Assembly (NCBI RefSeq): GCF_002019645.1
Contig: NZ_KV917374.1
Location: 3,546,696 to 3,610,695, forward strand
Direction: 5' to 3'
Length of the DNA stretch: 64,000 nt
Origin: Litchfieldia alkalitelluris
GTDB taxonomy: Bacteria; Bacillota; Bacilli; Bacillales; Bacillaceae_L
The notes beneath the pieces were generated by a model. The model was not told where the DNA came from. It saw only the letters and a list, made by a program, of their open reading frames with translations, and made no database searches. Below are positions 14,522 through 57,246 of this stretch, one piece after another; the stretch's first letter is position 1, and each line of letters begins with the position of its first letter. A program made the translations under genes and the position numbers.

Positions 14522-14688
14522 AGAAAAGCGCTGAGGCGCCCGCCTATCGGCGAAAGGCATAACACGAGCGCTGACAGGGATGAATTCTCTGAATTCATCT
14601 TTGAAGGCGCTTTTTGCTTATCCGTTGCGATTGACTTATGACCCCGAGCTGATGGAGCCTGGAGCTAGACACCAAAATTTGATTGAAA
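14522..14688. repeat. Repeat family A, copy 1
   Basis: About 167 bases with the family A framework: a GGCGCC-type left arm, ATCGGC pairing with GCTGAT, CATAA with TTATG (core GACTTATGACCCCGAGC), and an inner variable hairpin that here is GATGAATTC-TCT-GAATTCATC flanked by AGCGC/GCGCT. Compared with the copies at 46076 and 56757 the inner stem has a different sequence but still pairs. No C boxes flank this copy, and no protein is encoded. Confidence 0.8.
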
Positions 14689-19963: not shown

Positions 19964-20178
19964 TTTCTTACCTCACTTATAATTAGTTTTCTATATTTTA
20001 GCTTACTTAAGTAAATATAGGAAAGCAACTTTGGTTAAATTGTCCCTATAATAAAATATTTTCTAAATATAATAGTGGGTATCTTCCATGTAAATACCAG
20101 GTTTAAGAATTTTATTTACTATGGTGCGACATACTTATATAACATAAAATGTCTATCCTAAAAATAACTTTGGTTGTG

Positions 20179-20310
20179 GAGTTCCATGTGCTGCGATCCA
20201 ATTGCTTTACGCGGGGTGGTCCGGGAGCCTCCTCGTCGCCTTCGGGGCTCCTGTGGGGTCTCCCGAAACCACTATATCCCGCAGGAGTCAGGTGGCTCTC
20301 CGCTCATTAC
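20179..20310 (+). repeat. Repeat family B, copy 1
   Basis: GC-rich element in AT-rich surroundings, starting GTTCCATGTGCTGCGATCC and ending CTCTCCGCTCATTAC. Internal complementary stretches include GGTCCGGGAGCC/GGGTCTCCCGAAACC and CTCCTG/CAGGAG. It belongs to a repeat type I have seen commonly between genes in Bacillaceae; I know no established name. Confidence 0.85.
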
Positions 20311-20394
20311 ACACTGAGGTATACATTTTCATTCTTCATGGTGCGAAATTCTTATTTAGCATGGAAGTCTACCCTGGAAATAACTTAGTTAGCG

Positions 20395-20528
20395 GAGTTC
20401 CATGAGCTGCGATCCAATTACTTTCCGCGGGGCGGTCCGTGAGCCTCCTCGTCGCTTTGGGAGCTCCTGCGGGGTCTCACGAGACCGCTAGATCCCGCAG
20501 GAGTCAGGTGGCTCTCCGCTCATCATTC
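20395..20528 (+). repeat. Repeat family B, copy 2
   Basis: The second unit of the tandem pair, closer to consensus: GCGGTCCGTGAGCC pairs with GGTCTCACGAGACCGC, and CTCCTGCGGG with CCCGCAGGAG. It has the same orientation as copy 1. Confidence 0.85.
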
Positions 20529-20674
20529 CAACTGGGTTAGTACTTTTTCAACCTTCATGGTGAAAATATTCATTTGCATGGGTGTCTACCCTAAAAATAA
20601 CTAGGCTTATAAATAAGTTACGACCTATGTCTTCTGGATCACACTACATCTTAGTTAATTTCCATATCAAAACA

Positions 20675-29486: not shown

Positions 29487-29631
29487 TGTTTTTCGAAAAC
29501 TTATACCATCGGTTAAGTAAATGAATTACAAATGAGTCTGTGCACCGTCCGGGGTATCTCGCAATTGAATCACAGCCAAATGAAATAAAATTCGAACCTT
29601 GGAAAATTGAAAAGTTTTTTCAAACTTAATG

Positions 29632-29762
29632 TGGAATGAGCGGAGAGCCACCTGACTCCTTGGGAGTAGCGGTCTCGTGAGACCCCGCAGGAGCCCAAAA
29701 AGCGACGAGGCGGCTCACGAACCGCCTCGCGGAAAGCAGGTGGATCGCAGCGACTGGAATTC
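29632..29762 (-). repeat. Repeat family B, copy 3 (inverted)
   Basis: The same element as at 20395, read on the opposite strand: it starts TGGAATGAGCGGAGAGCC and ends near GATCGCAGCGACTGGAATTC. GCGGTCTCGTGAGACC is near-perfectly self-complementary, and GAGGCGGCTCACGAACCGCCTC is a second hairpin. Only a partial C-box tail (TTATTTTCAGGTTA) follows. It lies between convergent yktB and yktA. Confidence 0.82.
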
Positions 29763-29803
29763 AGCTAACTAGTTATTTTCAGGTTATTTACAATTGTAAT
29801 CAT

Positions 29804-45965: not shown

Positions 45966-46075
45966 AAGTAGTCCCCCAATTGTTCTTCTAGGTAATCCTT
46001 TTTATAAGGTTATTTTATCATATATTTTATAATTTATCTCAGAATAACTAGTTTTGTTGTCTATCCTGAAAAAAG

Positions 46076-46196
46076 AAAAGCGGAAGGCTCTCGTTCATCG
46101 GCGACAGGCATAAGACGAGCCGGCAAGAAGGTTGCTTTTTAACCTTCTTGCCGGATTGACTTATGACCCCGAGCCGATAGCGCCTGAAGCTAGACA
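46076..46196 (+). repeat. Repeat family A, copy 2
   Basis: The most complete family A copy. Nested complementary arms are seen: AGGCTCTCG-side with AGCGCCT, ATCGGC with GCCGAT, CATAAG with CTTATG, and an inner 14-bp hairpin CCGGCAAGAAGGTT/AACCTTCTTGCCGG with a GCTTTTT loop. It is preceded by a C-box tail (TCTATCCTGAAAA) and followed directly by a C box. Confidence 0.85.
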
Positions 46197-46220
46197 CTAA
46201 GCTAAGTATAATTTTTCATA

Positions 46221-46260
46221 CTCCATGGTGCTAATTTTAATTAGCATAGATGTCTACCCT
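46221..46260 (+). repeat. Repeat family C box (after A copy 2)
   Basis: CTCCATGGTGC, a TGCTAAT-TTTA-ATTAGCA hairpin, then GATGTCTACCCT. It is identical, with 38 further bases to its left, to the C box at 56896. Confidence 0.8.
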
Positions 46261-46265
46261 GAAAT

Positions 46266-46442
46266 AACCTTGGTAGCGGAGTTAGTTCCATGAGCTGTGA
46301 TCCCACCTGCTTTACGCGGGTGGTCCAGGAGCCTCCTCATCGCCATTAGGGGCTCCTTACGGTGTATTGCGGAATCACAACACGCCTCATTACACTAGAT
46401 CATGCAGGAGTCAAGTGGTCTCCGTATACCACATTAGGGTTA
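46266..46442 (+). repeat. Repeat family B, copy 4 (degenerate)
   Basis: Recognisable as B from GTTCCATGAGCTG, GGTGGTCCAGGAGCCTCCTC and CATGCAGGAGTCAAGTGG, but with insertions in the middle (about 46365-46405) that break the hairpins. A worn C-like box (GTGTAGACTTATAG..GGCGTCTACCTC) follows at about 46470-46495. Confidence 0.7.
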
Positions 46443-46573
46443 GACTCTGATCAATTTTCTGGTGTAGACTTATAGATCATCGGCGTCTACCTCTGAACTG
46501 AAAATTACACGGATGAGAGATGCTTAATCGCTTCAATTTAGCGGGTTAATTTTAGTCTAGAATAAAAAAATCA

Positions 46574-46607
46574 TAAAAAAAGAAGAGGGATAAATTCTAC
46601 CTCTTCT
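46574..46607 (-). terminator. Terminator after yknV
   Basis: AGAAGAGG/CCTCTTCT stem, followed on the minus strand by TTTTTTT. Confidence 0.75.
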
Positions 46608-46617
46608 CAAACTAAGT

Positions 46618-48441
46618 CTATCCTACTTCTAGCATTTTAAATTGTGCCTTTACTAGCTTATAATATTCTCCTTTATGTTCCATAAGCTGATCATGAGAAC
46701 CTTGTTCTAGGATTTCTCCGTGATCTAATACAAAAATCTTGTCAGCTTCTCTAATAGTAGATAGTCTATGTGCAATTATAATCGCTGTTCTATCTTTGAG
46801 TAGTTTTTTCAAGGCACTTTGGATCTTCATTTCTGTTTCTGTATCAATACTTGCTGTTGCTTCATCTAAAATTAAGATTTTAGGATCTGCTAATAGAGAT
46901 CGTGCAAAGGATAATAGCTGACGTTCACCTACAGAAAGAATATTACCTCTTTCCTCGACTTCTGTCTTGTAGCCATTTGGTAGCTTTTCAATGAAAGCAT
47001 GTGCCCCCACCGCCTTAGCAGCATCCATAACTTCTTCATCCGATGCATCCGGACGACCGAAACGAATATTATCAAATATTGTTCCCGAGAAAATAAACGT
47101 ATCTTGAAGTACAACACTAATTTGTGAGCGAACACTTTGAAGTGTTACGTCTTTAATATCAATACCATCGATCTTGACTGTTCCACTTGTAGAATCATAG
47201 AAACGGCTTATTAAGTTAGCGATTGTCGTTTTACCTGAACCAGTATGACCGACTAGAGCTACTGTCTGACCTGCTTCCATGGTTAAAGAGATCCCCTTTA
47301 AAGCTTTTCGTTTTTCGTCATATGAGAATTCTACCTTATCAAACTCAATCTTACCTTTAATATCTGTTAATGTCTTTGCATTTTCTTTTTCAGAAACAAT
47401 AGGCTTTTCATCTAAATATTCAAAAATACGTTCGGATGATGCCATCCCCATTAAAAGTTGGTTGTAAACTTGACCTAGGCGGGAAATTGGCTCCCAGAAC
47501 ATCCCTAAATATACTGCAAATGATACGAATGCACCGATATTAAGGCTGTCACCAGTGATTAAGTAGGCCCCATACCATAAAAGTATTGCAGTTCCTATTG
47601 CATTTGTCATTTCAACAAATGGTCTAAACATGGCATTTTTTCTAGTTGCATCTCTCCAACTTTCAAACGTTTCCGTGTTAACACCATCAAAAAACTCCAT
47701 ATTCTCTTTTTCTTGAGTGAATGATTGCGTTACGCGAATCCCTTGAATACTTTCGTTTAAGTGAGAATTTAATTTCGCCTGCTTAATACGAACCATTTGC
47801 CAAGAACGTCTTATTTTTTTTCTGAGACTAGTAGAGATAAAGAACATAACTGGCAAAATAACCATTATTGCCAGTGTTAGCTCAGGGCTAATCACAAATA
47901 GAATAACAAATATTCCAATTAATAAAATAAAATCCATTAATAAATTAATTACACCATTTGTAAATAGCTCTTGAAGAGAATTGATATCGTTCATTATACG
48001 AACAAGTATTGAACCAGCAGAACGCTGATCAAAGAATCGATGGGACAAGTTTTGAACATGTGTAAATAAATGTTTTCGTATGTCATAAATAATATTTTGC
48101 CCCAACTGATTCATCCATCTTATTCGGAAGACATTAGAAATATAAGATACTGTATATAATCCAAGAATTACAAAAACCAACGTGATTAGAAGGTTTGTAT
48201 CCTTATCAGCAATTGCATGGTCAATCGTATATACACCTATTAAAATAGGAACAATCAGCCTAACTGCAGTAGCTATTAATACTGCAATAATCGCAAGTGG
48301 TAACAAAGTTTTCGTATATGGTTTCATATAGCTTAATAATCGATACATCTGTTTCCAGTTAAATGGTTTCTCAATTGCTTGATCCGTTGAATAATGAAAA
48401 CGTTCATTTACATTATTCTTTTTCACTTTCTGTTCACTCAT
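46618..48441 (-). CDS. yknV: Heterodimeric ABC exporter subunit YknV
   Basis: A 607-residue type IV ABC half-transporter: an N-terminal soluble stretch typical of YknV (VNERFHYSTDQAIEKPFNWK), six membrane helices (about 45-340), then an ATPase domain with Walker A GHTGSGKTTI, Walker B LILDEAT with the catalytic Glu, and a non-canonical signature LSVGERQ in place of LSGGQ. It pairs with the product of the gene 14 bases upstream. Export substrate is unknown; relatives include BmrCD-like drug exporters. The ATG at 48439-48441 follows GGTGAGG; an in-frame GTG three codons earlier overlaps it. Confidence 0.85.
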   Translation of the reverse strand: MSEQKVKKNNVNERFHYSTDQAIEKPFNWKQMYRLLSYMKPYTKTLLPLAIIAVLIATAVRLIVPILIGVYTIDHAIADKDTNLLITLVFVILGLYTVSYISNVFRIRWMNQLGQNIIYDIRKHLFTHVQNLSHRFFDQRSAGSILVRIMNDINSLQELFTNGVINLLMDFILLIGIFVILFVISPELTLAIMVILPVMFFISTSLRKKIRRSWQMVRIKQAKLNSHLNESIQGIRVTQSFTQEKENMEFFDGVNTETFESWRDATRKNAMFRPFVEMTNAIGTAILLWYGAYLITGDSLNIGAFVSFAVYLGMFWEPISRLGQVYNQLLMGMASSERIFEYLDEKPIVSEKENAKTLTDIKGKIEFDKVEFSYDEKRKALKGISLTMEAGQTVALVGHTGSGKTTIANLISRFYDSTSGTVKIDGIDIKDVTLQSVRSQISVVLQDTFIFSGTIFDNIRFGRPDASDEEVMDAAKAVGAHAFIEKLPNGYKTEVEERGNILSVGERQLLSFARSLLADPKILILDEATASIDTETEMKIQSALKKLLKDRTAIIIAHRLSTIREADKIFVLDHGEILEQGSHDQLMEHKGEYYKLVKAQFKMLEVG

Positions 48442-48455
48442 ATTTCTCACCTACC

Positions 48456-50210
48456 TCACCCTGTTTGCGATTGAAGGATTGTCTTTTGATCCTTATATTG
48501 AATATCATATATTCTTTGATATGCACCATTATTTTGAACAAGTTCATCATGTGTTCCTCGTTCAACAATTTTACCCTCATCAAGTACTAATATCTCGTCA
48601 GCATGCTTTAAAGAAGAGATACGATGAGCAATTATTAAAGTAGTTCTTCCTTTCATTACTTCCTTTAAATCTCTTTGAATATTAAACTCTGTTTCCATAT
48701 CAACCGCACTCGTTGCATCATCTAAAATTAGGATGCTAGGGTCAATACAGATTGCTCTAGCAATGGCAATTCTTTGTTTTTGGCCACCAGAAAGACCCAT
48801 ACCGCGTTCTCCTAGCAGTGTATCGTAGCCGTTTTCTAGCTCCATAATAAAATCATGTGCTTGCGCACGTTTTGCAGCATCTATAATTTGATCCATTGTG
48901 GCATCTGGACGTCCATACGCAATATTCGATTTAATCGTAGATGAAAATAGAAATGACTCTTGTAATACAAAACCAATATTTCTTCTAAGAGTACTAATGG
49001 AATATTCCTTAATATCACGACCATCTACAAAAATTTGGCCTTTTACCGGCTCATAAAATCTTGTAATTAACTGAGTAATACTTGTTTTTCCAGATCCAGT
49101 TGAACCAATAAGTCCAATAACTTTTCCTGGTTCAGCATTAAATGAAATAGAAGAAAGAGCCGCCTCATCGTCTTCAGTATATTTTAAAGTAACATCTTTA
49201 AAATCTAATTGACCTTCTAATCTCTCTTTAGATACAGCTGCTTCTTTTTCTATAATTTCTTCATCTGCTTCTAAAATTTCTAGAAGTCTTTCACCAGACG
49301 CTTTTGATTGTGAAAACTGATTGATTATAAAACCAAGGTTCATAATTGGCCACATGATATACCAAACCAAACTAAAGAAAGCAACCAATGCACCATGAGA
49401 AAGTTGACCACCGATGACCAAATATCCTCCATAGGATAAAAGTGTTACTACACTAATATTGCCGATGAATTCCATTAACGGAAAATACTTAGCCCAAATA
49501 TCTGCTGTGAATAAATGATTACCTTTGTAATCGTTATTTGAGTCATTAAATTTATTTATTTGGAACGATTCTCTGGATAAAGATTTCACCGTATTAATTC
49601 CACTGATATTTTCTTGAACATTTGTGTTTAATCGACCAAATGATTTCCGAATCCCTCTAAAAGCGGGATGTACCCTTTTATCAAACTTATATACAACTAC
49701 CACAAGAAACGGTAATGCAGCAATTGTTACAAAAGTCAATGATACTGAGTAAGAAAACATAACTACTAAACTAGTACCAACTAAAAGTACGAATCTTATT
49801 AATTCTGAGAACCCAAATGATAAAAAGAACCTAAACCCTTCTACATCAGCTGTTAGACGTGACATTAAATCCCCAGTCTTAGCATTATCGTAATACCTGA
49901 ATGGCAAGTATTGTAACTTTTTATAAAGTTCATTTCTAAGGGTATAAACGGACTTAATTCCAAACATGTCTCCGAGGTATTGTTGAAAATAGGTTGTAAC
50001 TCCTTTTACAATCATAATTCCGATAAACCCTAAAGATATATAAGGTATATAACCGTAATTCCCAGCTATAATAACTTCGTCAATTGTAATTTGAAGAACA
50101 ATGGGGTAAACAACAGTAATTCCGGTTACAAATAAAAGAAAAAAGATTGACCAAAGAAAAAGTTTTTTAAATGGCCAATAAAACTGTTTCAGTTTTTTAA
50201 ACGTCTCCAT
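48456..50210 (-). CDS. yknU: Heterodimeric ABC exporter subunit YknU
   Basis: A 584-residue partner half-transporter: six membrane helices (to about 300) and an ATPase domain with Walker A GSTGSGKTSI, canonical signature LSGGQKQRIAIARA, but Walker B ILILDDATS, with Asp where the catalytic Glu should be. With the altered signature in YknV this makes one of the two nucleotide sites degenerate, as in known asymmetric exporters. The frame runs 48 codons further upstream, but GGAGGAGG before the ATG at 50208-50210 fixes the start (METFKKLKQFYWPFKK). Confidence 0.85.
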   Translation of the reverse strand: METFKKLKQFYWPFKKLFLWSIFFLLFVTGITVVYPIVLQITIDEVIIAGNYGYIPYISLGFIGIMIVKGVTTYFQQYLGDMFGIKSVYTLRNELYKKLQYLPFRYYDNAKTGDLMSRLTADVEGFRFFLSFGFSELIRFVLLVGTSLVVMFSYSVSLTFVTIAALPFLVVVVYKFDKRVHPAFRGIRKSFGRLNTNVQENISGINTVKSLSRESFQINKFNDSNNDYKGNHLFTADIWAKYFPLMEFIGNISVVTLLSYGGYLVIGGQLSHGALVAFFSLVWYIMWPIMNLGFIINQFSQSKASGERLLEILEADEEIIEKEAAVSKERLEGQLDFKDVTLKYTEDDEAALSSISFNAEPGKVIGLIGSTGSGKTSITQLITRFYEPVKGQIFVDGRDIKEYSISTLRRNIGFVLQESFLFSSTIKSNIAYGRPDATMDQIIDAAKRAQAHDFIMELENGYDTLLGERGMGLSGGQKQRIAIARAICIDPSILILDDATSAVDMETEFNIQRDLKEVMKGRTTLIIAHRISSLKHADEILVLDEGKIVERGTHDELVQNNGAYQRIYDIQYKDQKTILQSQTG

Positions 50211-50442
50211 ATTTAGCCTCCTCCAGTTGATTAAATAAAATATGTAACAATGATGACACATAACTATTAATATATCGACTTTCGAAATAAATTTCCAGTA
50301 AATTGTTTGAACATCTCGAATTTTTACAAAAAATACGTGTTTTATCCTAACCAAATAACGAGGTAAAAAATCTTAATGAGCAAAATCGATCCAGAGATCA
50401 TCATTTCAAGGAAGGAACGATGCTTGCTTTTATTAAGCCATT

Positions 50443-50480
50443 CAAAAATAAACGGAAAGATTTTATTTATCTTCCCGTTA
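50443..50480 (-). terminator. Terminator after ykuV
   Basis: AACGGGAAGAT/ATCTTTCCGTT (one G-T pair) with a 7-base loop, followed on the minus strand by TATTTTTG. The rest of 50211-50485 has no gene. Confidence 0.7.
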
Positions 50481-50485
50481 CAGTG

Positions 50486-50941
50486 TTATTCGGTTTTCTC
50501 GCTCTCTTCAAGCACACGATTCACACGCTTCGTCAGCATCTTCATACCACTTCCACCCGCCTGGTAATGACGCAGCTTCCCTTCAGCATCAAAGACATAA
50601 TAAGCAGGAACATACTGGTTTTCAAATGCATCTGTTAGTTTATGGTCATTATCAACAAATATTGGTTGACTAATATCGTGTTGTGCAGCAACTTCTATAA
50701 TTTCTTCTAGATTCAAATCCTTTTCAGACCTTGGCATATGTACTGCAACAATGTTTAATTTATCTTTATATTGATCTCTAAATTCATTTACTTGCGGCAT
50801 TGCATCTTTACATAATCCACAGCTTATCGACCAAAAATGGAAAAGAGTTGGTTTTTCACCAATTAAATCCGATTTATTTAACTCCCCATTAAGCCATTCT
50901 GTTGCACCTTCTAACTCAGGCATCTGCTCTCTCAACTTCAT
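50486..50941 (-). CDS. ykuV: Thiol-disulfide oxidoreductase YkuV
   Basis: A 151-residue cytosolic thioredoxin-fold protein of the TlpA/ResA group without a signal peptide. The active-site CxxC is C41-C44 (SISCGLCKDA), and the cis-Pro segment VPAYYVFD and GGSGMKMLTKRV near the end match B. subtilis YkuV, whose structure shows a reducing disulfide protein. GGAGG lies nine bases before the ATG at 50939-50941. Gene order with ykuU, about 90 bases upstream, suggests shared thiol-redox work with that peroxiredoxin. Confidence 0.92.
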   Translation of the reverse strand: MKLREQMPELEGATEWLNGELNKSDLIGEKPTLFHFWSISCGLCKDAMPQVNEFRDQYKDKLNIVAVHMPRSEKDLNLEEIIEVAAQHDISQPIFVDNDHKLTDAFENQYVPAYYVFDAEGKLRHYQAGGSGMKMLTKRVNRVLEESEKTE

Positions 50942-51034
50942 TATACACAACCTCCATTTATAATGATAAGAGGCCTAACAGCAAGTTAGACCCTTATACA
51001 ACAAAAATTACTCAACCAAAATAATCATAATCCT

Positions 51035-51577
51035 TTATAAAGTTGCTTGTCCTGGTTTCCAGTTTGCCGGACATAGCCCACCTGTTTGTAAGGCCTGCAG
51101 TACACGAAGTGTCTCGTCTACGTCACGACCAATGTTGTTGTGGTTAACAACTGAGTACATCATTTCTCCTTCTGGACTAATAATGAATAACCCACGTAGT
51201 GCAATTCCTTCTTCTCCAATTAGTACCCCATACTCCCGTGAAACAGCGTGGTTTGTATCAGCAGCTAATGGGTATTTTAAATCTCCCAAGCCATTTTCAG
51301 TACGACCTGTTTTAATCCATGCTAAATGTGTATGTATTGTATCTGTGGATACTCCGATCACTTCTGCATCTAAATCTTCAAACTCATCATATCTATCAGA
51401 TAAAGAAGTAATTTCTGTTGGGCACACGAAAGTGAAATCCATTGGATAAAAGAATAATACTGTCCACTTCTCATTTTTCATGTTCTCTGAAAGGCTTACT
51501 TTTCCAAAGTCCTTATTTGCCAATACTGCATCCATCTCAAAGCGAGGTGCTGGTTTACCTACCATTCGTTCTGCCAT
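51035..51577 (-). CDS. ykuU: 2-Cys peroxiredoxin YkuU
   Basis: A 180-residue AhpC/Prx1-type peroxiredoxin that reduces hydroperoxides. The peroxidatic Cys52 is in DFTFVCPTEI and the resolving Cys169 in GGLCPANWKPG; GVSTDTIHTHLAW is also typical. The length is that of B. subtilis YkuU. The reductant is probably a thioredoxin-like protein, with the adjacent ykuV a natural candidate. ATG start with GGAGTG upstream. Confidence 0.94.
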   Translation of the reverse strand: MAERMVGKPAPRFEMDAVLANKDFGKVSLSENMKNEKWTVLFFYPMDFTFVCPTEITSLSDRYDEFEDLDAEVIGVSTDTIHTHLAWIKTGRTENGLGDLKYPLAADTNHAVSREYGVLIGEEGIALRGLFIISPEGEMMYSVVNHNNIGRDVDETLRVLQALQTGGLCPANWKPGQATL

Positions 51578-51889
51578 TATTAATCACTCCATTAAGTTTG
51601 TTCAGTAACAATTCAATACCTTTGGTAATTCTTAACACCTGCCATTATAAATGAACCATTTTTTGTAGTCAATTTTAGGAAGAATTGAGTAAATCAAAAC
51701 TTTTACTAACATTACACTTCCTTTATATACAATCTATTTTTTCATTTTCATTAACCTTTAGACATTTTCAGACAAGAAACTTGAAATCATTTTTCACTAT
51801 GTTACAATTTTTTATATGTTTTTAGTTGGTACTGTGATTGTTAGAAGGACAAATTAAAAGCTTATTACTAATAGAGAGGAAGGATTTAT
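51578..51889. other. Divergent region between ykuU and ykuT
   Basis: About 310 AT-rich bases that must carry two promoters. I see no clear operator, and no PerR-like box that I would defend. Confidence 0.5.
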
Positions 51890-52738
51890 TTGTTTGGAGA
51901 GACATTTAACTTTGAAAAACTAGACTTTGAACTACTTCTGACCACAATTGGAATTCTAGGTTTAAAACTATTGGGAATTTTTATAGTTTTTTTAATTGTT
52001 AAGAGTATAGGAAATCGAGTTATCAGGAGATCTTTTGAAAAAGTTGTTAAGCGCGATGACATTTCGCTGGGAAGAGCTAAAACACTAGAAAGTCTTAGTT
52101 TAAATATTTTTTCATATGTCCTATTTTTTATTTTTATTGTAATGGTATTTGAAATCTTCAACTATGATGCCACTGCATTACTTGCAGGAGCTGGTGTTAT
52201 TGGCTTAGCAATTGGATTTGGAGCACAAGGACTTGTAAGTGATGTTGTCACAGGTTTCTTTCTCCTATTAGAAAAACAAATTGATGTTGATGATTATGTA
52301 ACAACAGCAGGATATTCTGGTATTGTTGAATCTGTTGGTCTAAGAACAACTCAAATAAGGGGTTTTGATGGAACTCTTCATTTTTTACCTAACCGACAAA
52401 TTTCCAGTCTAAGTAACCATTCAAGAGGCAACATGAGAGCCTTGGTGGATATAGGAATATCATATGATGATGACATTGATCAAGCAATAAATATATTACA
52501 AAATACTTGTGACAAAATTGCCGCTGAAGATGAGTCAATTAAAGAAGGGCCTAATGTTATTGGGGTACAATCTCTCGGCTCCTCTGATGTTGTTATCAGA
52601 ATTATTGCCAAAACAGACAACATGGGGCAATGGGCTGTTGAAAGAAAACTACGTAAAGCTCTTAAGGAGGCGCTCGATTCTAATGGAATTGAGATACCAT
52701 TTCCTCACCAAGTATATATCGAAAAAAAATCAGAATAA
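51890..52738 (+). CDS. ykuT: Small-conductance mechanosensitive channel (MscS family, YkuT)
   Basis: A 282-residue MscS-type channel that releases solutes on hypo-osmotic shock. Three membrane helices precede the pore-lining segment LLAGAGVIGLAIGFGAQGLV and the conserved DVVTGFFLLLEKQIDVDDYV, then the cytosolic beta and alpha/beta domains. The start is a TTG with GGAAGG six or seven bases upstream. It is transcribed away from ykuU and ends at a shared terminator with ykuS. Confidence 0.92.
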   Translation: MFGETFNFEKLDFELLLTTIGILGLKLLGIFIVFLIVKSIGNRVIRRSFEKVVKRDDISLGRAKTLESLSLNIFSYVLFFIFIVMVFEIFNYDATALLAGAGVIGLAIGFGAQGLVSDVVTGFFLLLEKQIDVDDYVTTAGYSGIVESVGLRTTQIRGFDGTLHFLPNRQISSLSNHSRGNMRALVDIGISYDDDIDQAINILQNTCDKIAAEDESIKEGPNVIGVQSLGSSDVVIRIIAKTDNMGQWAVERKLRKALKEALDSNGIEIPFPHQVYIEKKSE

Positions 52739-52756
52739 TTATTAGCTAATACTAAC

Positions 52757-52793
52757 AAAGAGGATGTCCCAAGTTCTAGGACATCCTCTTTTA
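52757..52793. terminator. Bidirectional terminator, ykuT/ykuS
   Basis: AAAGAGGATGTCC with its perfect complement around an 11-base loop, T run following. Confidence 0.85.
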
Positions 52794-52813
52794 TTAAGTA
52801 TAATGTTATTTCA

Positions 52814-53059
52814 TTATTGACCTACTCTGTTTTCTACCTGTTGACAAATTTCTTCAGCAGTTAGACCATTTGCTTCAATTACAGGCCCTTTAATTACTGA
52901 ATCAGCCATTCCCATAACATTTGAATCTAATCCTGTGATGACACAACAATCACAGCCTTGCGCATCATTTTCTTGACGAAGCTGAACAACTTCATAACCT
53001 TTTTCTTGAAGTGCTTGCTGAACGTCTGTTAATGATCCTTCAACACCAATTTTCGCCAT
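52814..53059 (-). CDS. ykuS: YkuS, UPF0180 family protein
   Basis: An 81-residue UPF0180 protein. Its N-terminus ([25 protein letters not shown]) and central [16 protein letters not shown], with three clustered cysteines, are typical; the fold is a small alpha/beta domain of unknown function. GGAGGTGG precedes the ATG. It follows ykuR by 83 bases, as in B. subtilis. Confidence 0.9.
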
Positions 53060-53142
53060 TTTTCATCCACCTCCTATATATGTAACTTGCCTCAAAATAG
53101 ACCGTTTTATTCTTACACATATGTGAGAAGGATAAGCAAAAA

Positions 53143-54264
53143 TTAATTACCTTTATACTGGATATACTTGGTCAATAGATTAATGCCCATTTCGATCGCA
53201 TCCTCATTTGGTAGTAGCTTAGAATGATGTAAGCCGTATGAACTATCTACACCTAGCCAAAACATAAAACCTGGTATATCTTTAATCATATAGCCAAAAT
53301 CCTCTCCAGTCATTGCCTCGCGACATTCAACTAAAGTAGCTTGATCTTGCTCAGAAACAAACTCCATAAACTCCCTTGTTAATCCAGAGTGATTAAACAC
53401 TTGGTGATACATTGCCCCGTAATCAATCAGTGTTTTACATTGATATCCTACTTCGACGCCCTTGACTAACGCTTCAATTCTCTCTTTTACCTTAACCATA
53501 GATTCAACTGAAAGAGTTCTAATTGTACCTTCGAGTCTAGCTGTTTCAGCAATGATGTTTTGAACAGTTCCACCTGTAATTTTCCCTACTGTAATAACAG
53601 CGCTATCCAATGGGTCTACATTTCTTGAGATGATTGATTGAAGTTGTGTAACAAGTGAACAAGCTGCAACAATCATATCATTGGTTTGGTGAGGGTATGC
53701 AGCATGACCACCTTTACCAATAAAATCAATATACAACTCAGAGGTGTTAGCAAATAACAAGCCTTCCCTAGTAGCAATTGTTCCAACAGGATAATCTGGA
53801 GCTATATGAAGGCCAATCACTAGATCTGGTTTCCATTCCCTCATTATCTCGCTTTGTAACATTGGTAAAGCACCTCCTGGTCCTTCTTCAGCAGGCTGAA
53901 AAATAAAAAGAAGGTTATCTTTAACTGGTTGGTGGATAACATTGGTTAACACACCTAAAGCAATGCTCATATGAAAATCATGACCACACGCATGCATTCT
54001 ACCATTATGAATAGAGGAAAATTCATATCCCGTTTCTTCAGTGATAGGTAATCCATCAATGTCAGCTCGATACCCAATTGTTTTGGTTGGATTTGTCCCC
54101 TTAATTAGGACGAAAATTCCTGTCTTCCAAGTTTTTATTTCTATCTTTTCCTGTGGTAAGGATTGAATATAATTTAATAAGTATGCTTGTGTTTTATATT
54201 CCTGAAAGCCTAGTTCTGGAATTTGATGCAACTCGCGTCGTATCTTCACAAATGGGTTGGTCAT
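53143..54264 (-). CDS. dapL: N-acetyldiaminopimelate deacetylase YkuR
   Basis: A 373-residue M20 metallohydrolase that deacetylates N-acetyl-LL-2,6-diaminopimelate in the acetylase branch of lysine and peptidoglycan-precursor synthesis. Motifs: [11 protein letters not shown], the metal site [21 protein letters not shown] with the catalytic Glu, [12 protein letters not shown], and MTGEDFGY near the end. The length equals B. subtilis YkuR. The ATG at 54262-54264 has GAGAGG upstream; the frame continues 57 codons beyond it, but only because it reads through a B repeat, so those residues are not real. The first pathway gene, dapH, lies upstream beyond that repeat and a terminator. The function is often named dapL or ykuR. 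Confidence 0.9.
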
Positions 54265-54319
54265 CAGATTACCTCTCCCTTCGTTGCTTCTATACATTGT
54301 ATATAAAAATAACCTAGAT

Positions 54320-54462
54320 AGTTTAGTTCCATGAGCTGCGTCCACTTGCTTTCCGCGGGGTGGTCCGTGAGCCTCCTCGTCGTCTGCTTTGCTCCTGCGG
54401 GGTCTCACGAGACCACTAGATCCCGCAGGAGTCAAGTAGCTCTTCGCTCATTCCACACTTAA
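54320..54462 (+). repeat. Repeat family B, copy 5
   Basis: Near-consensus B element (GTTCCATGAGCTGCGTCC to TCGCTCATTCC) in the gap between dapH and ykuR. GGTCCGTGAGCC pairs with GGTCTCACGAGACC, and CCTGCGGG with CCCGCAGG. Confidence 0.85.
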
Positions 54463-54480
54463 GCAAACAACATTTTCATC

Positions 54481-54511
54481 CTCCATGGTGCTAATCCATA
54501 AAGGTCTTCCA
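54481..54511 (+). repeat. Repeat family C box (after B copy 5, truncated)
   Basis: CTCCATGGTGCTAAT then AAAGGTCTTCC; the hairpin and final TCTACCC are eroded. No C box precedes this B copy. Confidence 0.6.
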
Positions 54512-54529
54512 TTAAAGGTTATGTATATA

Positions 54530-54565
54530 ATACAAGCGTGGATATATAATCCACGCTTGTATTTA
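54530..54565. terminator. Terminator after dapH
   Basis: ATACAAGCGTGGAT and its complement around a 5-base loop, directly after dapH. It would separate dapH from ykuR transcription. Confidence 0.8.
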
Positions 54566-54583
54566 TAAACTTTATGCTTTTAT

Positions 54584-55303
54584 TTATTCTTCATTTAACT
54601 GACGAAGTTCTTGTTTAATTTCAGTCTTAGATTTAGTTTTTTCGTCAATTTCTTTGATAACACGAGCTGGCGTTCCAGCCACAACGGTATTTGGTGGGAC
54701 ATCTTCGATTACAATTGCACCTGCAGCAACAACTGCGCCCTTTCCAACTCTAACACCTTCAAGTACAACCGCATTTGCTCCGATTAATACATCATCTTCA
54801 AGAATTACAGGCTGAGCAGATGGTGGCTCAATCACACCAGCCAATACAGCTCCAGCTCCTACATGACAATTTTTACCTACTGTTGCGCGTCCGCCTAAGA
54901 CAGCATTCATGTCGATCATTGTACCTTCACCAATAACAGCTCCGATATTGATTGAAGCACCCATCATAATAACCGCATTATCGCCAATTTCTACTTGATC
55001 TCGAATAATTGCACCAGGCTCGATACGCGCTTTGATTCCTTTTAGATCTAATAAAGGAATTGCTGAATTTCTACGGTCATTTTCAACTACGTAATCTTCA
55101 ATTTGTGTAGAATTAGCTTCAAGTGTAGCTTGAATATCCTTCCACTCCCCAAAAACGATACCAGTGTTTCCTGTAATAAATGTTTTGGAGTTTGCACCAA
55201 AATCTAAACCTGCTAAATCACCTTTAACATATACCTTAACAGGTGTTGATTTAACACTATTTTGAATAAATGAGATAATTTCATTTGCATCCATCATTTT
55301 CAT
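54584..55303 (-). CDS. dapH: Tetrahydrodipicolinate N-acetyltransferase
   Basis: A 239-residue acetyltransferase that acetylates tetrahydrodipicolinate in the diaminopimelate/lysine pathway. After an N-terminal DapH-specific domain ([20 protein letters not shown]), hexapeptide repeats of the left-handed beta-helix run from about residue 88 to 205 ([20 protein letters not shown] and following). It is very similar to B. subtilis YkuQ. GGAGGAA precedes the ATG. Together with ykuR it covers two steps of the acetylase branch. Confidence 0.95.
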
Positions 55304-55493
55304 ATGTATTCCTCCTAGCTAAATTCTTTGAAGTTTTGGCTAAAAACAAAGCCAAGCATATTCTCATCTAATTTATCAAACTAAAGTAAGCATATCAAGA
55401 AAAAAGTCGTTTTTTTTGCGAATGATTATTTTTATCTGTAATTAACTCGTACTTTTGGTCGAATGATACTTCCTTCGTAATAGCCTTATAAAA

Positions 55494-56363
55494 CTATTTA
55501 AAGGTTTCTTGAATAATATCGATAAAAGCTTTAACCTGTTTTAATTCAAATGATGATTCATACCCAATTAACCATGTATCTCGTTTCATTGGTTCATTTA
55601 ACTCATTTAGCAAAGGTATTTTATATATTTGCGAATCATCCTGATTAAGTGTTATTGAGGGTAGGATTGCATAACCTATACCATTTAAAGTCATCTGTTT
55701 ACAGGTTTCAATTTGATCGACTATGATAGTCCTTTTGGGGACCGTCTGAAAAGTTCGATGCCACCACTCTTGTATTTCTTGATAATAAGTAGAATCACTT
55801 CTAAACTGAATAAATGGACGGTCAGTTTCTAATACCTGCTCTATTGAATTAATTTCAGTATCTACCAGATACATGGTATCTGTTATTAAATGTTTTTTAA
55901 CACCCTTCCAATCAGGATTACCACGGATAATTCCAATATGGACTGTATCATCATATAGATTTTTTAGTATCTCACTACTCCAACCAGTAATAAGTGATAT
56001 CCTAGCCTGAGGATATTTTGTCACATATCTTTTTAGGACTTGAGGCAACCAGTTCTGACCAATTATCGATGCACATGCAATCTTCAATGTTCCGTGAACC
56101 TCATGGTCTAATGACTGTATTTGCTCTCGGATTTTCTCTTCTTTTTCAACAACCTCTTTAGCAAATTCAATAATTTTCTCCCCAGCTGGAGTAGGAGTTA
56201 ACCCCTTTTGCGATCTTACAAATATTTTTGTATTCCATGATTTTTCAATGGATTGAAGACGTTGAGATAATGCTGGTTGAGACACAAATAGTTTTTCAGC
56301 CGCTTTTCTCATATTCATTTCAGAATCTAAAACAACTAACAATTCAAACTCAGAAAATTGCAC
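55494..56363 (-). CDS. ccpC: LysR-type regulator CcpC
   Basis: A 289-residue LysR-family regulator: winged helix-turn-helix at residues 1-60 (MRKAAEKLFVSQPALSQRLQS), linker helix, and a two-lobed effector domain (IGIIRGNPDWKGVKKHLI, QIETCKQMTLNGIGYAILP). It closely resembles CcpC (YkuM), the citrate-responsive repressor of citB and citZ. The order dapH-ccpC is like ykuQ...ykuM of B. subtilis, without the flavodoxin genes ykuN and ykuP. GTG start with GAGGTG upstream. It is followed by about 190 bases without a clear terminator. Confidence 0.9.
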   Translation of the reverse strand: MQFSEFELLVVLDSEMNMRKAAEKLFVSQPALSQRLQSIEKSWNTKIFVRSQKGLTPTPAGEKIIEFAKEVVEKEEKIREQIQSLDHEVHGTLKIACASIIGQNWLPQVLKRYVTKYPQARISLITGWSSEILKNLYDDTVHIGIIRGNPDWKGVKKHLITDTMYLVDTEINSIEQVLETDRPFIQFRSDSTYYQEIQEWWHRTFQTVPKRTIIVDQIETCKQMTLNGIGYAILPSITLNQDDSQIYKIPLLNELNEPMKRDTWLIGYESSFELKQVKAFIDIIQETFK

Positions 56364-56514
56364 GTTTACACCTCTATATCCCCATAAGTTTCACTTATGT
56401 CACTTGTTGACTTTTTAATCATTTTATTTTAACACAAGAGGAGACATCATTAAATCAACAAATTAATGAAGGCGATTACATGAGTAAATCTCTACCTGAA
56501 AGTAACCTAGGTTG

Positions 56515-56700
56515 TGGATACGCCTACTTGGGAGATCGCCTCAAAATGGGCCTATCATTCGCAACTAAGTCATAAAGCTATGATTCACTTTCTCCTCGTT
56601 TTTGCTTCGGGAGCTGGATCATAGAGCATATGATCTACTTCCCTCTGGCTCTTTGGCAACTGTATCGAAGCCACTGGAATCTACTAAATTCTGACTCATT
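56515..56700 (+). repeat. Decayed repeat, probably family B
   Basis: Fragments such as TGCGCCTACTTGGGAGATCG-like sequence, CTTTCTCCTCG, GCTTCGGGAGCT and GAAGCCACTGGAATC recall B but with many changes. It is followed by GGAGTCTACCCTGAAAA, the end of a C box, at 56738-56756. Confidence 0.4.
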
Positions 56701-56756
56701 ATAAGTAATATTAAGCAACCTTTTCATATTTTATTTACATTGGAGTCTACCCTGAA

Positions 56757-56876
56757 AAAAGAAATGCGGAAGGCGCTCGTTCATCGGCGACAGGCATAAG
56801 ACGAGCCACCCTAGTAGGTTGCTTTTTAACCTTCTAGGGTGGCTTGACTTAGACCTACCTGAAGCTAGACACTAAG
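56757..56876 (+). repeat. Repeat family A, copy 3
   Basis: Left half nearly identical to copy 2 (GCGGAAGGCGCTCGTTCATC), inner hairpin GCCACCCTAG.../CTAGGGTGGC with the same AGGTTGCTTTTTAACCT tip but a different basal stem, and a right half missing the GACCCCGAGCCGATAGCG block. From 56858 it is identical to copy 2 onward. Confidence 0.82.
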
Positions 56877-56895
56877 CTAAGTATAATTTTTCATA

Positions 56896-56935
56896 CTCCA
56901 TGGTGCTAATTTTAATTAGCATAGATGTCTACCCT
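56896..56935 (+). repeat. Repeat family C box (between A copy 3 and B copy 6)
   Basis: Same 40 bases as at 46221-46260, again between an A and a B element. Confidence 0.8.
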
Positions 56936-57093
56936 TGTGGAGTTCATGAGCTGCGATCCACTTACTTTACTTTCCGCGGGGTGGTCCGTGAGCCTCCTCG
57001 TCGCCAGGGGAGGGCTCCTGCGGGGTCTTACGAGACCACTGGATCCCGCAAAGGAGTCAAGTGGCTCTCCGCTCATTCCACACTAGTTGAATG
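56936..57093 (+). repeat. Repeat family B, copy 6
   Basis: Near-consensus B element with small duplications (TTACTTTACTTTCC, CAAAGGAGTC) and intact GGTCCGTGAGCC...GGTCTTACGAGACC pairing. Confidence 0.82.
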
Positions 57094-57109
57094 CGCGCTA
57101 TTTTCATAC

Positions 57110-57148
57110 ACCATGGTGCAAATACTCATTCGCATGGACGTCTACCCA
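57110..57148 (+). repeat. Repeat family C box (after B copy 6)
   Basis: ACACCATGGTGCAAATACTC, then ATTCGCATGGACGTCTACCC. The TGCAAAT/ATTCGCA arms still pair with one mismatch. Confidence 0.75.
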
Positions 57149-57246
57149 AAAAATACTTAGATTCGAAAATCCCATTCGTAGGTGTTCACTCATGAGCAAA
57201 CCTTAAACTTTCTTAAACAGGAATCTACATATATAGTTATAAACTA

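Follow-up and report, generated by a model that had tools for sequence, protein, structure and literature searches.

The 64,000-nucleotide stretch of the Litchfieldia alkalitelluris genome analyzed here (the window; contig NZ_KV917374.1 of assembly GCF_002019645.1, positions 3,546,696 to 3,610,695) carries arrays of short intergenic repeats in which unrelated structured cores (types A, B and D) alternate with a small hairpin-bearing sequence, the C box. An IS110-family insertion sequence (IS) of the same genome is bounded by the same two ends as these repeats, and its predicted guides spell the end of the C box. Judged from sequence, the A-C, B-C and D-C units, together with units holding a fourth cargo, E, are very probably non-autonomous IS110 derivatives whose arrays would arise by self-addressed RNA-guided insertion.

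Features in the window were delimited by direct reading and with profile hidden Markov models (HMMs) of A, B and C (cut-offs 12, 12 and 10 bits, respectively), D being searched with one seed (15 bits); all lie on the plus strand unless stated otherwise. At 20.1 kb a worn C box (20112..20164, HMM) forms the left end of an array of B units: a first B core (20176..20315, 137.7 bits) with a C box at its right end (20326..20380, HMM and sequence), whose GTCTACCC is common to the left end of the second unit, and a second B core (20392..20524, HMM) with its own right-end C box (20545..20597, HMM). The 46-kb array opens with the left end GTCTATCCTGAAAA of an A unit (46059..46072, read from the sequence) and continues with the A core (46080..46197, 128.3 bits), a C box with the A-type hairpin TGCTAAT/ATTAGCA (46213..46264, HMM) and a diverged B core (46284..46434, 66.6 bits), after which a worn C box is visible by eye and missed by the HMM. 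At the head of the 56.7-kb array we found a core of a third cargo type, D (56510..56717, 65.5 bits in the seed search). It is followed by the C tail of the D unit (56730..56758, sequence and HMM), which includes the left end GTCTACCCTGAAAA of the next, A unit (56745-56758), and then by an A core (56765..56872, HMM), a C box (56888..56935, HMM), a B core (56937..57084, 142.5 bits) and the C box that closes the array (57101..57152, HMM), so that the full order reads D-C-A-C-B-C once the D core is added. A solitary, decayed unit at 54.3 kb consists of a B core (54323..54459, HMM) and a truncated C box (54473..54515, HMM). A free A core (14534..14672, 58.4 bits) has no C hit beside it, and a B core on the minus strand (29628..29764, HMM) shows weak C-side similarity to 29590. 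The positions and order of the repeats given in an initial annotation made from the sequence alone were reproduced; the D core, the minus-strand B core and the lone A core are additions to it. Scanning the window against Rfam at gathering scores gave no match, and a scan of four loci with IS copies or arrays gave two sub-threshold matches only (E up to 1).

The same order of parts was found throughout the genome. In a sample of 60 evenly spaced 20-kb stretches (1.2 Mb, 22% of the 5.43-Mb genome), which was itself included among the loci used to build the A, B and C HMMs, we counted 36 A, 91 B, 111 C and 19 D. Among same-strand neighbors no more than 100 bp apart, A was followed by C 28 times and B by C 59 times, while C was followed by B 39 times and by A 18 times; rarer successions were seven each of C to D and D to D, three of D to C, two of B to B, and one each of D to B and C to C, and the direct neighbors AA, AB and BA did not occur in the sample. 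Opposite-strand neighbors within 100 bp were met at two places only, with C in neither, and the longest arrays, which were chained along one strand by definition, have twelve parts (for example, CACBCACBCACB). Over the entire genome a strict C pattern has 124 matches and its reversed control none; a slightly looser pattern has 148. These data bear out the earlier proposals that the modular order exceeds chance and is genome-wide and that unrelated module types occupy one slot. A search of plasmids gave one partial match, and orientation relative to genes showed weak trends that were opposite in this genome and in that of Bacillus timonensis AcN35-3.

Each unit is laid out as CTACCCTGAAAA, core, and then TTTTCAT..CATGGTGC-stem-GCAT..GTCTACCC, and adjoining units share one CTACCC. 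Solitary units have only GTCTACCCTGAAAATAAC, often worn, on their left side and a C box on their right. In addition, the hairpin subtype tracks the preceding core, the T-type hairpin following 18 of 26 A cores versus 6 of 44 B cores. Because of these two observations we regard C not as an independent punctuation sequence, as had been proposed, but as the right-hand end of each unit. The sample holds 71 left-end motifs: 62 stand immediately before an A, B or D core, and nine belong to E cargo or array ends; isolated left-end scars were not found in the 1.2 Mb. E, the fourth cargo, consists of tandem hairpin repeats of about 50 bp within the same frame. In six loci of this genome (L086, L092, L102, L104, L105 and L107) the E repeats, TTCATTCCCTTTCTCATGCC..AAAGGGAATGAAAAG, vary in number. 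The arms of the C hairpin do pair, as initially described, and in many B-type boxes the fourth pair is mismatched (G-A or A-C). Between genomes the stem letters change with pairing preserved: at the variable stem positions pairing is above that of shuffled partners (14-17 of 16-18 positions in IS boxes, against a proportion of about 0.47), in a comparison whose shuffling ignores relatedness. One hybrid unit (L103:10396) has the left end and first bases of A fused to the last bases of B, followed by a C box.

The genome has four IS110 genes. The element that we call IS110-1 is present in two copies, is 1,588 bp long and encodes a 407-aa transposase with the domains PF01548 (128.7 bits) and PF02371 (85.5 bits). 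It lies within the same arrays as the small units and is bounded exactly as they are, with CTACCCTGAAAATA on one side and its own C box on the other. Identity between the two copies is 99.6% over 1.64 kb. Either copy ends on the right in a C box of its own, the same in both, and their neighbors are swapped (A-C/IS/B at one, B-C/IS/A at the other); since the neighbors differ, the IS behaves as a further module of the grammar. When five unit sequences are set against it, the IS has 20-49 bp in common with them at the C end and, at the opposite, left end, 13-29 bp; single end matches are weak (E 0.06-0.2), and elsewhere there are three short matches of 11-18 bp. The A, B and D units share both ends and lack the transposase gene and guide region, and the E units can be added to them by their end sequences.

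Elements with these ends are not confined to L. alkalitelluris. An IS110-family transposase is encoded in Aneurinibacillus within a 1.6-kb interval that has a C box on either side, and same-ended copies number two in that genus and one, with a broken transposase, in Evansella; neither end is recognizable in a broken Aneurinibacillus copy (L312). The gene between two C boxes at L297 is host nucleotidyltransferase-like. A transposase match at E up to 1e-90 was found in 32 of 299 genomes drawn from the order, that of L. alkalitelluris included, and loci were taken for 30 of the 50 listed matches. With a looser pattern at a set distance, a C-like hairpin was found to precede the transposase start by 235-300 bp in 22 of 26 homologous loci, with TATTTTCA..AG downstream of it in 16 of the 22 and a variant of one or two bases in 5. 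A stricter pattern recovered the C-like end in 19 of 30 loci (in L314 and L323 not at the usual distance), and eight loci with homologs of 44-48% identity have no C-like hairpin. Seventeen of the 22 hairpin-bearing elements sit at targets other than CAGGGT or CATGGG, and the retention of the hairpin at differing targets indicates that it is the end of the IS and not a remnant of the target. The non-coding span from the core to the gene start is 247 nt in L. alkalitelluris and 241-270 nt across the 22 copies. A second IS110-family element of this genome, encoding 440 aa, is also present in two copies (L306 and L307, at ~3118.2 kb and ~3715.4 kb of contig C1), and both interrupt a B core, the insertion point following GAGCCTCC; the B core is its target.

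At one fixed spot upstream of the transposase gene, the elements carry short copies of their own flank (GGGTAG, ATGGGAG, AAGATAG, CCGTTAG, TGCGCAG, CCTATAG, CAGTTAG and CCCCGCAG), which match the insertion site of the respective element exactly or with one base changed, except in L333. We compared these and two further candidate guides with the sequences they would pair with in 22 of the 26 IS110 loci, omitting L317, L320, L323 and L337, whose left end is unclear; the eight distant homologs (L335, L336 and L338-L343) and the repeat copy L314 were outside this set. L315, which is mis-anchored, and L318, which has a wrong right end, were kept in the counts as they stood. The guide of each element agreed with its own target (the LT-LTG comparison) at 72 of 76 positions versus 31 expected in 19 copies (L310, L316 and L333 being without anchor), the donor guide agreed with its own end (RE-LDG) at 91 of 95 positions versus 76 expected, and the second target guide (RTG) agreed at 52 of 80 positions versus 24 expected in 20 copies (L309 and L316 being out). 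None of 20,000 permutations reached the observed value in any of the three comparisons, although these counts are not probabilities, the IS copies being related and falling into about nine distinct guide classes. In some elements the donor guide and the element's own end both read CAGGATAG. Bridge RNA guides are reported to select both the insertion target and the donor of IS110 elements (PMC11208160; PMC11187229), and the covarying regions are counterparts of those target- and donor-binding guides.

The target guides of the L. alkalitelluris element, GGATGTCT and TGGGTAG, together give GGATGTCTACCC, that is, GGATGT-CT-ACCC, the end of the C box. Since its guides match the C-box end, the preferred target of the element would be the junction of its own family. 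In the 1.2-Mb sample GGATGTCTACCC has 16 exact sites, all of them in C boxes; when up to one mismatch is allowed there are 53 sites, of which 52 are in C boxes. The corresponding numbers for the reversed control are 0 and 4. At the start of arrays, the bases before GTCTACCC are the A (20 of 34) and the T (21 of 34) predicted by the guide more often than the composition of the flank would lead one to expect. This lends weak support, GT having been part of the search motif and the flank being about 80% A+T. Relatives whose guides point elsewhere have 23 hairpin boxes versus 24 IS matches in 11 genomes, and the genomes with CTACCC-ending boxes hold 148, 72, 14 and 8 of them; the box counts of 23, 14 and 8 are from exact patterns, which diverged boxes escape.

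Taken together, these observations suggest how the arrays may form. A core and the C box on its right would constitute one non-autonomous mobile unit that carries both IS110 ends, A, B, D and E being unrelated structured cargo enclosed between them. The IS110 recombinase and bridge RNA would act on such units in trans; bridge RNA is reported to be able to work in trans on a 22-bp donor (PMC11208160), and cargo flanked by IS ends is reported to move (PMC11187229). Recombination at the CT core would then join the circular end-junction of a unit to the end of a C box. Each insertion next to an existing unit would restore the junction, leading to head-to-tail accretion with one shared CTACCC. The insertion of IS110 elements into B cores may offer a route of cargo capture. 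In three relatives of IS110-1 from other genera (L330, L331 and L332) the guides spell CCCGC-AG-GAGTC and the elements sit at that target (CCCGCAGGAGTC), the conserved part of B-type cores. The suggestion that the repeats reflect a recombination unit involving the hairpin is judged the likely cause, whereas a logic like that of pneumococcal BOX elements gives way as an explanation, the unit ends being those of an IS110-family transposon instead.

The frame and the cores have separate distributions outside this genome. In two genomes of the same genus (G001 and G002) neither C pattern occurs; their sampled stretches hold A cores that are free, sometimes in tandem, without C, as well as GC-rich B-type cores in a frame like that of a miniature inverted-repeat transposable element (MITE), the terminal inverted repeats being AAGGCTGTTTTC..GAAAACAGCCTT and the arms long and compensating (L194-L201 and L183 in G001, and L182 and L184-L193 in G002, for the MITE-framed cores and free A). 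Since A and B occur there without C, cores and frame are separable. The refuting condition that had been proposed, namely mutual independence of A, B and C, does not hold within the L. alkalitelluris genome. B. timonensis has the C frame around a B core with different arms, its stem changed on both sides (TGCAAT/ATTGCA). In a collection of 84,980 species the junction of C box and left end was found in 61 stretches, the genera besides B. timonensis being Evansella, Sutcliffiella and Aneurinibacillus. The same ends occur with other cargo in Dethiobacter, Desulfotomaculum, Moorella, Syntrophomonadaceae and Peptococcaceae assemblies, which we take to be Clostridia. In L251, L256 and L291 and in L248, L259 and L278 the clostridial cargo includes, for example, TGTCATCCTGAGCG..GAATGACA and GGGCGGGTTTGAAACCCGCCC, presumably very widespread intergenic repeats.

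The units of B. timonensis have some properties of their own. In 21 of 52 arrays an intrinsic terminator on the same strand lies just ahead of the left end (controls: 8 for antisense terminators upstream, 3 and 3 for those downstream, and 3.3% at random). Terminator targeting was considered as a mechanism and rejected, because L. alkalitelluris shows no such asymmetry (10, 5, 6 and 9 of 59; random 2.6%), and the adjacency is kept as a property of the B. timonensis sites. In four units (L128, L166, L209 and L231) the hairpin core is wholly lost, with nearly the same breakpoint, CCTCG/NTTAAC, as expected if the core forms a DNA hairpin during replication. In L228, L231 and L232 the same additional segment of about 60 bp (..TCCTCACCGCACGAAGGAAATGCG.CAGCATTTTCGAG) lies in B-type cores. 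No autonomous copy was seen upstream of 95 candidate C boxes of this genome, which include a few chance matches; the upstream sequence inspected reached 3.5 kb at the longest and in many cases did not exceed about 1.5 kb.

Several observations weigh against self-addressed IS110 insertion as the source of the arrays. No movement was observed in these sequence data, and empty sites could not be read in the two congeneric genomes, in which the intergenic DNA is too diverged. The flank TCTCTAG of L333 does not fit its apparent guide TTCCGTTA; among the 20 copies, seven have a second target guide that matches at only 0-2 of the 6 positions outside the core, and the anchor of this guide was redefined once, the earlier choice having given a weaker result (61 of 120 positions versus 36.9 expected, reached by 1 of 20,000 permutations). 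Only one of two donor guides was located, folding one sequence or running alifold on 22 did not give a clean two-loop structure, and with respect to the transposase the two target guides may stand in the opposite order from those of IS621. One genome (G183) has a transposase 83% identical to that of IS110-1 and no CTACCC-ending box. No match to this transposase was found at E up to 1e-20 in B. timonensis or in seven of nine genomes that C-box loci led to, several of them metagenome assemblies, and the single IS110 gene of B. timonensis lacks these ends; mobilization in these genomes would then be past or due to a relative. Finally, the left flank of the B. timonensis units is T-rich with RG, not ATGT, before CT, and the guide of that genome would therefore have to differ.

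We weighed four other explanations against insertion by IS110. The C boxes could be an older, independent repeat that IS110 merely targets, in the way that REP (repetitive extragenic palindrome) or attC sequences serve some IS110/IS1111 elements, while the units move otherwise. Both IS110-1 copies do lie between C boxes, and IS1111 elements are reported to target folded repeats (PMC11187229); however, the hairpin that precedes the transposase gene at 22 of the 26 clade loci, 17 of them at quite different targets, and the identical C box that each IS110-1 copy carries despite different neighbors make this very unlikely. We consider it similarly improbable that the arrays stem from tandem duplication or homologous recombination of an ancestral A-C-B-C block. 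A-C-B is the commonest order (core succession across C boxes being AB 18, BB 11, BA 10 and AA 3), and two of ten within-array B pairs are 99-100% identical, as duplication would have it. Apart from these two pairs, high-scoring cores are no more alike within arrays than between them (seven A pairs at 0.90-0.97 versus a mean of 0.92, and B likewise), which argues that arrays grow mainly by accretion of independent units; many units are solitary, and whole IS copies are interposed with different neighbors.

The remaining explanations invoke other recombinases. If the C boxes were palindromes like repetitive extragenic palindromes (REPs) or bacterial interspersed mosaic elements (BIMEs), a Y1 transposase (REP-associated tyrosine transposase, RAYT) would move them, and a GTAG does adjoin the C hairpin on the complementary strand, the tag of GTAG REPs (PMC3733652); the same source describes REPs mainly as head-to-head dimers, whereas the array members here are head-to-tail. 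No C box was found near 11 Y1 loci of two genomes (best score 2.7 bits, chance level), and the two RAYT-type genes inspected adjoin a different repeat, all of which leaves little room for a RAYT. Those two genes (L146 and L139) lie near another short repeat, GGGACGGTTCTC.., probably their own REP. IS200/IS605-like copies were considered as a partner of the units and rejected on account of their left end, which differs from that of the units. Least credible of all is an integron-like system, in which a tyrosine recombinase would shuffle the units as cassettes with C as the folded attachment site. It would account for a recombination site at one end of the unit, for the shared junction and for the outer arms TTTTCA/TGAAAA, but the genome holds a complete IS110 bounded by these very ends, and the junction is what its guides predict.

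Insertion by IS110 into the family's own junction is consequently the explanation we favor for the L. alkalitelluris arrays. A wider proposal, which we put forward tentatively and regard as possible but somewhat short of probable, is that a self-addressed IS110 sub-lineage builds arrays in Bacilli and Clostridia, as a natural RNA-programmed cassette system that packs unrelated intergenic hairpin repeats between its ends, often even where the transposase gene has already gone from the genome. The component parts are of known kinds; as far as checked, the novelty lies in the self-targeting of the guide, the interchangeability of the cargo and the grammar of the arrays. We found no published account of IS110-derived non-autonomous arrays in the open literature searched, which mostly lacks subscription journals and preprints. 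In the text of PMC11208160 and PMC11187229 the word 'tandem' does not occur, nor does 'nonautonomous' in the former or 'miniature' or 'MITE' in the latter. The nearest published case found is an IS1111 inserting into a MITE in Coxiella (PMC10969869).

If the explanation is right, a guide spelled like the element's own junction turns a transposon into a self-feeding array builder, and self-targeting would account for the modular grammar of these intergenic repeats. It would point to a natural use of bridge RNA in trans by very many tiny donors per genome, and the units would be minimal donors, refined by evolution, for RNA-guided recombination tools. It would also provide a possible route by which unrelated intergenic hairpin repeats spread between genera.

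The system resembles IS110-family elements with bridge RNA (IS621; Durrant 2024, PMC11208160) or seekRNA (PMC11187229) in its DEDD and Transposase_20 domains, its long upstream non-coding region, its target guides for two strands and donor guide, a dinucleotide core within the pairing and a single orientation of insertion. It differs in that the sub-lineage here appears to be programmed for its own end junction and in that the IS is far outnumbered by small units having only its ends. Like MITEs, the units are short, non-coding, present in high copy and share their ends with an autonomous element; unlike MITEs, they have no long terminal inverted repeats (only TTTTCA/TGAAAA inverts), their ends are asymmetric (14 bp versus a hairpin box of about 50 bp) and stand in direct relation, and they hold interchangeable unrelated cargo and form arrays. 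With REPs and BIMEs they have in common that they are palindromic, intergenic and mosaic, with GTAG by the hairpin on one strand, but the units here are head-to-tail with long structured cargo between them, and the 11 Y1 loci gave no link to a RAYT. Pneumococcal BOX elements are modular intergenic repeats too, and the likeness, judged by description, is one of modularity, the mechanism indicated here being that of IS110 ends. Integron arrays consist of cassettes that each carry a recombination site and stand head-to-tail; in the arrays described here, by contrast, the recombinase is a predicted RNA-guided DEDD enzyme and the cargo is structured non-coding DNA.

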